Both the position numbers and the translations under genes were made by a program. This document shows, piece by piece, positions 11,882-28,886 of a stretch of DNA of 64,000 nt (the first letter of the stretch is position 1; every line of letters starts with the position of its first letter). The notes below the pieces were generated by a model. The model saw only the letters and a program-made list of their open reading frames with translations. It was not told where the DNA came from and did no database searches. The DNA is from a bacterium (GTDB lineage Bacteria > Chloroflexota > Dormibacteria > Dormibacterales > Dormibacteraceae), in contig SCQL01000009.1 in the NCBI GenBank assembly GCA_004299235.1, forward strand, positions 62,001 to 126,000. The letters run 5' to 3'.

Positions 11882-12487
11882 TTGGCGGTCGCGGCGAGCT
11901 CGCCAGCCCAGCAGCGTCGCGATGCGAGGCTCGAGCGGCGCCGCCGGCGGATCGCCGAAGCCGCCCTGACGCTTTTTGCGACCCGCGGCTACAACCTGAC
12001 CTCGGTCGAAGAGATCGTGGCCCAGGCCAGGGCGTCGAAATCGGCGTTCTACGAGTGCTTCACCTCGAAGGAGCACTGCTTCCGGGAGCTGCTGGCCGAA
12101 GAGGGCGGGTCGCTGATCCATGAGGTGCTGACCCAGGCCGCCAGGGGCCACAACCACCGCGAGCGGCTGCGCTTGGGTATCACCACGTTCGTCCACTCGT
12201 GCTTCGAGCGCTCGGCGGTGGCGCGGCTGTTGATCGTCGAGTCGGTCGGGCTGAGCACCGGCGTCGATGCGGTGCGGCACGAGCTGCAGGGCCGGTTCGC
12301 CGGCGCCGTGGCGGAGGAGGTCCGGCACGCCATGCTCCACGATCCTTTTTATGCGGACAAGGACCCGCAGGTGTTCGGGCGGGCGGTGGTGGGGGCGGTC
12401 AGCGATGCCGTCGGCCACTTCCTGACCCACCCCGGCGTCGAGGCGGAGTCGCTGGCGGCGGGCCTGTGCCGCATCTTCGCCCCGTAG
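11882..12487 (+). CDS. TetR/AcrR-family transcriptional regulator (201 aa)
   Basis: N-terminal helix-turn-helix: RIAEAALTLFATRGYNLTSVEEI followed by ASKSAFYECFTSKEHCF, the classic TetR_N pattern. The helical C-terminal ligand domain is not family-specific. TTG 11882, right after the dehydrogenase stop, is taken as the start because it gives the usual short basic lead-in; the upstream in-frame ATG 11801 lies inside the dehydrogenase. Most likely a repressor sensing an acyl-CoA and acting at the palindrome near 10646, though this is inferred from position only. Confidence 0.88.
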   Translation: MAVAASSPAQQRRDARLERRRRRIAEAALTLFATRGYNLTSVEEIVAQARASKSAFYECFTSKEHCFRELLAEEGGSLIHEVLTQAARGHNHRERLRLGITTFVHSCFERSAVARLLIVESVGLSTGVDAVRHELQGRFAGAVAEEVRHAMLHDPFYADKDPQVFGRAVVGAVSDAVGHFLTHPGVEAESLAAGLCRIFAP

Positions 12488-12521: not shown

Positions 12522-12550
12522 TTGCCTTCCGAACGCCTGTTCGCTACCAT
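12522..12550 (+). promoter_or_regulatory. LexA-controlled promoter of the 121-residue gene
   Basis: TTGCCT (12522-12527) and TACCAT (12545-12550) are separated by 17 bases. The spacer contains a perfect LexA/SOS box, CGAAC-GCCT-GTTCG, at 12530-12543. The layout matches the recA promoter in this window, where the box also fills the spacer. The predicted transcript would start about 7 bases before the ATG. Confidence 0.8.
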
Positions 12551-12563
12551 GTAACCCTCGAAC

Positions 12564-12929
12564 ATGCGTACCTTGAGCACCCGGGTGAGGCTGCGCCGGC
12601 TGATCCGCGCCCACGCCGAGGCGTCGGAGCGCCTCGCCTCCGAGCCTTCGGAGCGCGAGCTGGTCGCTTTGGTCGCCGCCCGGCTCCAGGGGCTGACCAC
12701 CGAGGTTCGTGAGGCCTGGCGCCGGGACCGGCTGGCCGGCCGCCTGGCGGACCCGCTGGACCGCTACGTCAGGGACGCCCTGCGCACACTCCAGCTGGCG
12801 ATCGCCGGGCTCGAGCAAAAAGGCGCCGACCTCGAGCTGCTGCGGCGCGATTTTGAAGTCGCCGCGCTGCCGCTCGAGATCTTCATGCGCGGCCTGGACG
12901 CCGAGCCGGCGCTGCAGCGCTCCGCCTGA
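12564..12929 (+). CDS. Uncharacterised helical protein, predicted SOS-regulon member (121 aa)
   Basis: I recognise no family. The protein is short, rich in Arg, Leu, Ala and Glu, and looks entirely helical, with no cysteine and no membrane segment. It is basic at the N-terminus (RTLSTRVRLRRLIRAH) and more acidic at the C-terminus. What marks it out is its promoter: a perfect CGAAC-N4-GTTCG LexA box sits between the -35 and -10 elements at 12522-12550. The near absence of a leader (no Shine-Dalgarno before ATG 12564) suggests leaderless translation. It lies 1.2 kb from lexA. A role in DNA damage is inferred from regulation only. Confidence 0.75.
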   Translation: MRTLSTRVRLRRLIRAHAEASERLASEPSERELVALVAARLQGLTTEVREAWRRDRLAGRLADPLDRYVRDALRTLQLAIAGLEQKGADLELLRRDFEVAALPLEIFMRGLDAEPALQRSA

Positions 12930-13316: not shown

Positions 13317-13628
13317 CTAGGCCGGCACGCGGAGCGTCTCCCCGGCGGTGATCAGCGGGCTGCTCAGACGATTGAGGCGCTCGATGTCCTCCACCCGGGC
13401 GCGCACGTCGTCGCTCGGATAGCGTTCGGCGGCGATCGACCAGATCGTGTCGCCGGGCTGGACCACGACCCTGGCTTCGGTGGGCGCTGTGCCGCCGTGC
13501 GCCACCACCGCCAGGCTGACGCTCACCGCCAGGGACAGGCCGATCACCGCCGCCAGCCGGCGGAAATGGCGCAGGCCGGCGTGACGGGTGGATCGGAGGG
13601 GGCGGATTCCGTAGGCGGTGGCGTACAT
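13317..13628 (-). CDS. LysM-domain membrane protein, YneA-like SOS division inhibitor candidate (103 aa)
   Basis: A basic N-terminus is followed by one hydrophobic helix (about residues 24-43) and an extracytoplasmic LysM domain: VVVQPGDTIWSIAAERYP and ERLNRLSSPLITAGETLRVP. This layout, the size and the divergent position next to lexA match YneA of Firmicutes and similar actinobacterial proteins, which delay septum formation during DNA damage. ATG 13628 is only a few bases after the predicted transcription start. The promoter TTGACA-N17-TACAGT carries a LexA box in its spacer. Location and LexA control support the call; sequence identity between such proteins is normally low. Confidence 0.8.
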   Translation of the reverse strand: MYATAYGIRPLRSTRHAGLRHFRRLAAVIGLSLAVSVSLAVVAHGGTAPTEARVVVQPGDTIWSIAAERYPSDDVRARVEDIERLNRLSSPLITAGETLRVPA

Positions 13629-13639
13629 CTGTTCGGCGC

Positions 13640-13668
13640 ACTGTAACGAACGCGCGTTTGGTTGTCAA
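13640..13668 (-). promoter_or_regulatory. yneA-like promoter with LexA box
   Basis: On the minus strand TTGACA (13668-13663) and TACAGT (13645-13640) are 17 bases apart. The spacer holds the LexA box whose plus-strand reading is CGAAC-GCGC-GTTTG (13647-13660). Confidence 0.82.
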
Positions 13669-13674
13669 GCGGCC

Positions 13675-13714
13675 CGAACAAAGGTTTGCTCATCAGCCGT
13701 AATGGTGCTAGCAT
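13675..13714 (+). promoter_or_regulatory. lexA promoter with LexA box (autoregulation)
   Basis: CGAAC-AAAG-GTTTG (13675-13688) overlaps a TTGCTC -35 box (13686-13691). TAGCAT follows as -10 (13709-13714) after 17 bases. It lies 28 bp from the box that serves the divergent gene, so each promoter has its own operator. Confidence 0.78.
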
Positions 13715-13754: not shown

Positions 13755-14369
13755 GTGAACGAACAGCTCACCGAACGGCAGACCAAGATCCTCGACTACA
13801 TCCGCTACGTGACCCGGGTGCGCAGCTATCCCCCGAGCGTGCGCGAGATCGGCGAGGCGGTCGGTCTCAGCTCGAGCTCGACCGTCCACAACCACCTCAA
13901 CCAGCTCGAGCGGCGCGGCCTCATCCGCCGCGATCCCAGCAAGTCGCGCACGGTCCAGCTCGTCCAGGACGCCGAGGTCGACAAGCAGAGGCGCAACGCC
14001 GTCTCCGTGCCGGTCGTCGGCAACGTCGCCGCGGGAGCTCCGATCCTGGCCGAGCAGAACATCGAAGACCACGTGCTGCTCTCGTCGGAGATGGCCCAGG
14101 AGGGCTTCTTCCTCCTTCGCGTCCGGGGCGACAGCATGATCAACGCCGGCATCCTGGACAGCGACATGGTCCTCGTGCGGCCCCAGCAGGAGGCGCCTCA
14201 GGGCGCCATCGTCGTCGCTCTGGTCGACGGCGACGCGACCGTGAAGAGGTTTGAGCGCGGCAACGGCAACGTTCGCCTGGTGGCGGAGAATCCGGCCTAC
14301 GAGCCGATCGTGACCACCAACGTGAACCTGGTCGGCGTCGTCCGCGGGGTGATCAGGCTCTTCCGCTAG
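13755..14369 (+). CDS. lexA: LexA repressor (204 aa)
   Basis: SOS master repressor. The N-terminal winged helix (TERQTKILDYIRYVT, then PSVREIGEAVGLSSSSTVHNHL) is followed by the S24 peptidase domain. That domain has the Ala-Gly self-cleavage site (GNVAAGAPILAE), the catalytic Ser in RGDSMINAGI and the catalytic Lys in GDATVKRFE. GTG 13755 with GGAG 10 bases upstream is chosen; an in-frame ATG at 13713 would add 14 residues but falls on the -10 box. Its own operator lies upstream. The 3' end overlaps convergent hflX by 17 bases. Confidence 0.96.
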   Translation: MNEQLTERQTKILDYIRYVTRVRSYPPSVREIGEAVGLSSSSTVHNHLNQLERRGLIRRDPSKSRTVQLVQDAEVDKQRRNAVSVPVVGNVAAGAPILAEQNIEDHVLLSSEMAQEGFFLLRVRGDSMINAGILDSDMVLVRPQQEAPQGAIVVALVDGDATVKRFERGNGNVRLVAENPAYEPIVTTNVNLVGVVRGVIRLFR

Positions 14370-28857: not shown

Positions 28858-28886
28858 AGTCTAGCGAACAGGTGTTCGTGAGTCAA
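28858..28886 (-). promoter_or_regulatory. recA promoter with perfect LexA box
   Basis: On the minus strand TTGACT (28886-28881) and TAGACT (28863-28858) are 17 bases apart. The spacer holds the LexA box, plus-strand reading CGAAC-AGGT-GTTCG (28865-28878). The -35 box overlaps the stop codon of the upstream fusion gene. The leader is about 75 bases. Confidence 0.9.

Follow-up and report, generated by a model that had tools for sequence, protein, structure and literature searches.

Our analysis describes a small gene of the Dormibacteria that almost certainly belongs to the LexA-controlled SOS regulon. The gene lies in the window, the whole 64,000-nucleotide stretch of DNA that was analyzed, which belongs to a 2.87-Mb Dormibacteria MAG whose close relatives are Candidatus Dormibacterota MAGs. 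We interpret it as a LexA-repressed SOS gene that is specific to one Dormibacteria family and that encodes a non-enzymatic, protein-binding effector, a reading to which we give a probability of about 0.7. The original prediction had put the gene forward as a candidate for an undescribed SOS gene, and this is supported by conservation of the LexA box in 32 of 34 orthologous promoters along with purifying selection on an orphan protein family. We infer that the product functions in the DNA-damage response. The features of the locus are collected in Table 1.

Table 1. Features of the orphan-gene locus and its neighborhood, with the recA box as a reference (window coordinates)
Feature	Position	Strand	Remarks
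TetR-family regulator	11882-12487	+	upstream neighbor with its own frame and stop, outside the orphan-gene unit
-35 element TTGCCT	12522-12527	+	direct read; part of zero-mismatch promoter pattern
Perfect LexA box CGAACGCCTGTTCG	12530-12543	+	within the 17-nt spacer 12528-12544
-10 element TACCAT	12545-12550	+	direct read; spacing conserved in orthologues
Second LexA-like site CGAACATGCGTACC	12559-12572	+	overlaps start codon; two mismatches in window genome
Orphan SOS gene (predicted)	12564-12929	+	121 codons; ATG start; stop ends at 12929
yneA-like LysM protein, SOS division inhibitor homologue	13317-13628	-	LysM match; top NCBIfam model is YneA, with a score under the cut-off
LexA-like site CGAACAGATGTACG	13622-13635	-	over yneA-like start codon
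Main LexA box of yneA-like gene	13647-13660	-	in TTGACA-N17-TACAGT promoter
lexA auto-regulatory box CGAACAAAGGTTTG	13675-13688	+	box scan and comparison with relatives
lexA	13755-14369	+	TIGR00498, 215.8 bits against a cut-off of 110.95; GTG start
recA LexA box	28865-28878	-	same promoter layout as orphan gene; reference case

A gene family restricted to one Dormibacteria family

Orthologues were present in 36 of the 42 genomes of the window genome's taxonomic family. No orthologue was found in other families of the same class (class sample, 110 genomes in all), and a phylum sample of 400 genomes contained no convincing homologue. Weak partial matches (G228, G042, G032 C20, and G033 C61) were inside longer frames and were rejected as homologues. 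Six family genomes lacked a match, and in three of these a contig end either interrupts the expected place or falls nearby on the contig with lexA. Specifically, the lexA contig ends nearby in G035, the lexA and TetR contigs both end in G017 with the gene on neither, and a contig is cut within TetR in G022. In addition, lexA is also missing from the assembly of G014, G451 is 63% complete, and G012 (59% complete) is the only matchless genome that shows the acyl-CoA dehydrogenase-TetR pair followed by something else. The description of the product as an orphan holds in the sense that no known family was matched, but the gene is not a singleton, given its family-wide distribution.

Among close orthologue pairs, dN/dS ranged from 0.13 to 0.28, with differences concentrated at third codon positions. 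As judged from these sequences, the open reading frame is a real gene family under purifying selection. It is a single-copy gene that is vertically inherited and occupies one syntenic place.

Two observations concern neighboring genes in other genomes. In G019, an open reading frame with a LAGLIDADG-like motif, AAGILDGEGCVHI, and no Pfam match at 1e-3 (L092:3638-4155) is located between a glutaredoxin gene and the orphan-gene orthologue, and the promoter of this reading frame contains a perfect LexA box, CGAACGTCTGTTCG. Separately, a 3.2-kb contig in an other-family genome (G046 C150, L078) carries an acyl-CoA dehydrogenase that is 94% identical to that of the window, which is likely the result of misbinning or recent transfer.

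A predicted LexA operator within the promoter

The orphan gene is preceded by a perfect LexA box that ends 20 nt 5' of the ATG. Its coordinates confirm the earlier claim of a box in the spacer of a TTGCCT-N17-TACCAT promoter directly before the gene, and the distance to lexA, given as 1.2 kb, was 1.19 kb when measured to the GTG start. By itself, a perfect box is not strong evidence, because a background of a few is expected per genome: there are 6 in the whole 2.87-Mb genome versus 3 for a reversed-pattern control, and between 1 and 20 in each related genome versus 0 to 13 for the control. The window has two perfect boxes, one at the orphan gene and the other at recA. Combined with promoter elements, the box becomes strong sequence evidence. 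Across 2.87 Mb, just two sites match the full pattern TTGNC-N3-CGAAC-N4-GTTCG-N-TA without mismatch, one at the orphan gene and one at recA, while approximately 0.0003 sites would be expected by chance according to our composition estimate. The promoter of the yneA-like gene is a one-mismatch site, and the genome scan thus agrees with the proposal that all three genes have a common promoter layout. Consensus and palindrome at the orphan gene, recA, and the yneA/lexA region are identical to the Gram-positive type LexA operator, CGAAC-N4-GTTCG.

The box has been retained in most orthologues. We aligned 34 readable orthologous promoters, made up of a first set of 28, 2 from genus g12, and 4 that were added later. 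The original prediction was staked on a box recurring upstream of orthologues, and this was found in 32 promoters, of which 31 were perfect and 1 had a single mismatch (G032, left half CAAAC). The 2 promoters lacking it, with three mismatches in G011 and no recognizable site in G021, both belong to genus g12. In the aligned orthologues, the box ends 14 to 20 nt from the ATG and is flanked by a TTG -35 element, which reads TGG in one case, and by a -10 element that contains TA. Furthermore, the spacer around the box varies while the box itself stays. The alignment supports the orphan gene as a conserved, predicted target of LexA. In G011 and G021, the gene and promoter-like hexamers remain where the main box is gone, which constitutes a natural loss of the operator.

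With 13 nt between the end of the -10 element and the ATG, and with a Shine-Dalgarno sequence absent, we infer that the mRNA is leaderless or nearly so. A search for structured or attenuator RNA downstream gave no Rfam match and a folding z-score of 0.2.

A further LexA-like site at the start codon

The LexA-like site that overlaps the start codon reads CGAACATGCGTACG in many orthologues, and in most of them the ATG is embedded in CGAAC-ATGC-GTAC(G). The counts at this site come from orthologues that are related by descent and are not independent trials, with C at position -1 in 28/28, A at -3 in 27/28, C at -5 in 23/28, and CGT as codon 2 in 22 of the 24 orthologues that encode Arg at this position versus 25 of 432 Arg codons in gene bodies. 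GC3 is 0.14 at codon 2, while it is 0.82 to 1.0 at codons 3 to 8 and 0.88 in the body of the gene. Given this pattern, a codon ramp does not explain the codon-2 CGT, and the T is instead kept for a reason at the level of DNA. We predict that the start-codon site is a second, weaker LexA operator. Relative to the Gram-positive type operator, the start-codon sites here conserve a variant half-site, GTAC.

The layout is mirrored by the yneA-like gene, which is divergent from lexA and has its main box in the spacer with CGAAC-N2-ATG-TACG over its start codon. Within the same taxonomic family, almost every locus examined keeps that start-codon site, and a second Dormibacteria family has a perfect CGAAC-N4-GTTCG at the corresponding place.

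Features of the predicted protein

Similarity searches agreed with the original view that the protein belongs to no known family. The window protein had no match in Pfam and NCBIfam, with scattered weak hits from single homologues, and no curated family in these collections linked it to SulA or other named SOS effectors. Searches of PHROG, PADLOC, and PDB sequences returned no family match beyond scattered chance-level hits, which for PHROG were weak and limited to single members. The best matches in a PDB sequence profile search were designed helical repeats, and these were marginal. A Foldseek search of PDB and BFVD found nothing better than an E value of 0.3. Viral or phage origin was rejected after a search of IMG/VR, which contained no viral relative.

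The claim of an all-helical product with a basic N-terminus is matched by an AlphaFold2 model built from 4 sequences, which has four helices (residues 6-26, 31-57, 63-84, and 90-113; pLDDT 77.6, pTM 0.69), and by a charge of +6 in the first 16 residues of the window protein. We are moderately confident that the product is a soluble four-helix bundle of 14 kDa, a predicted fold that is uninformative about function. A hydropathy scan detected no hydrophobic segment and Pfam detected no LysM domain, so that the transmembrane helix and LysM domain of YneA-type proteins are both absent.

Thirteen residues are invariant among 27 homologues (M1, L4, L10, R12, R15, R23, L41, W52, L93, L104, R109, P115, and A121), and none of these is Asp, Glu, His, Cys, Ser, or Lys. 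With no nucleophile, acid, His, or Cys among the invariant positions, the protein is unlikely to be an enzyme. In most length variants (121, 128, 130, and 135 aa), the C-terminus has the form L-x-[RK]-[STP]-A-COOH following a linker that varies, and this conserved tail looks like a recognition motif. One family member ends in LLAA. The tmRNA tag of the genome is ANKTNGLALAA, to which the tail bears a weak resemblance without ending in LAA, and we rejected a tmRNA-like degron on this basis. It is rather doubtful that the tail serves as a degradation tag.

Possible roles in the SOS response

Our preferred reading is that of an SOS effector. LexA bound at the main box, probably aided by the weaker site at the start codon, would keep the gene silent. 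DNA damage would lead to RecA-stimulated self-cleavage of LexA, turning on expression from a leaderless mRNA. Lacking enzymatic residues, the product would most likely work through contact with a partner. It could serve as a transient checkpoint factor, pausing division or replication while repair takes place, and the pause might end when the C-terminal tail is recognized as a degradation tag. By analogy with small SOS genes that other lineages carry near lexA, a checkpoint role is the leading, if tentative, possibility. The fully specified version is less likely still, namely, a second SOS checkpoint effector of a new family, in the form of a soluble four-helix-bundle inhibitor that has a dual operator laid out as at the yneA-like gene, halts replication or division, and is cleared via its C-terminal tail. 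Retention of the gene without the main box in genus g12 counts against the SOS-effector reading.

SulA, SidA, SosA, and DivS are small, orphan, lineage-restricted SOS division inhibitors under the control of LexA. The orphan gene is likewise small, orphan, and lineage-restricted, with LexA control being predicted, but there is no sequence match, and SidA and SosA differ from the orphan protein in being membrane proteins. The YneA/LysM division inhibitor of Bacillus subtilis and relatives is likewise encoded by a small SOS gene near lexA. Yet, YneA combines a membrane segment with a LysM domain and shares no similarity with the orphan protein. According to one report, YneA of B. subtilis blocks septal synthesis (PMC13396833). 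A further division inhibitor would duplicate the yneA-like gene that is already present next door, which argues that the orphan protein probably targets something other than septal synthesis.

About as likely as a checkpoint role is one in which the SOS product targets nucleic acid, RecA, or the replisome, with the basic N-terminal helix (R/K9, R12, R15) binding DNA or RNA, or with the bundle modulating RecA or a polymerase. DinI, RecX, and PsiB are small, soluble, SOS-linked RecA modulators that work by protein contact. The orphan protein is also small, SOS-linked, and predicted to be soluble, but it has no detectable homology with them and its predicted fold differs from that of DinI. The invariance of R12 and R15, a charge of +3 to +6 in the first 16 residues of every orthologue, and a set of co-regulated genes involved mostly in repair or recombination are consistent with such a role. 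Nevertheless, the protein as a whole is close to neutral in charge, its C-terminal half tends to be acidic, and there is no sequence or fold link to a DNA-binding family. It is quite improbable that the gene encodes an SOS-induced toxin or programmed-death protein. Despite being small and predicted to be tightly repressed, apparently from two operators, it has no accompanying antitoxin gene, convincing match in defense models, or viral relative, and its single copy and vertical inheritance at one syntenic place also speak against a toxin.

Other alternatives do not involve the SOS response. The gene could be a functional part of a metabolic acyl-CoA dehydrogenase-TetR locus with an incidental LexA box, since it adjoins that pair even in G003 and G016, in which lexA lies at a distance of 7.5 kb. 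We regard this as highly improbable: a separate promoter, in which the LexA box is conserved, precedes the gene, and in G024 the gene is approximately 4.3 kb from TetR yet still close to lexA. There is also no profile similarity to TetR, and descent from the ligand domain of the neighboring regulator was rejected with an hhalign probability of 0.7%. A spurious reading frame or chance box has next to no credibility. While perfect boxes do arise by chance a few times per genome, such an explanation is refuted by the conservation of frame, box, and spacing along with purifying selection.

LexA-controlled orphan effectors are already known as a kind, and what is new here is the protein family rather than the type of system. 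It is in small effectors particular to a lineage that SOS regulons differ most, and these are frequently checkpoint proteins that annotation overlooks. Our literature search found no paper on the SOS response of Dormibacterota. The present analysis yields a well-supported candidate SOS gene of an unknown family in an uncultured group, from a soil bacterium, together with an outline of the regulon.

The SOS regulon of the genome

The genome encodes LexA and RecA, both with the same type of box. The promoter layout of the orphan gene is also found at recA, the yneA-like/lexA region, and an imuA-like RecA-domain gene, and at an MrfA-type helicase with a 5' gap that is one base shorter. Because these genes have the same promoter, the orphan gene appears to sit in a genuine SOS regulon.

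The helicase (L073, G000 C19:98973) is of the DEAD-box type with an MrfA zinc-binding domain and is preceded by a TTGACT-N17-TAACCT promoter that contains a perfect LexA box. The ImuA-like gene (L099, G000 C29:26397) has a LexA promoter with one mismatch. LexA-box promoters, TTGACGCCCGAACGGATGTTTGGTA, also precede a multicopy family at seven sites, several of them at contig ends (L096, L098, and L100-L104; G000 C1, C2, C5, C17, and C31). L104, a copy whose full sequence was read, encodes DUF222 and HNH domains, and similar promoters occur in four other genomes of the taxonomic family. This copy resembles SOS-induced HNH genes of M. tuberculosis, where the HNH-superfamily genes Rv3074 and Rv3776 have LexA boxes and are induced by moxifloxacin (PMC7911356). 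Finally, a perfect LexA box falls among the initial codons of an rmuC homologue (L071, G000 C3:33487), where it may be due to chance.
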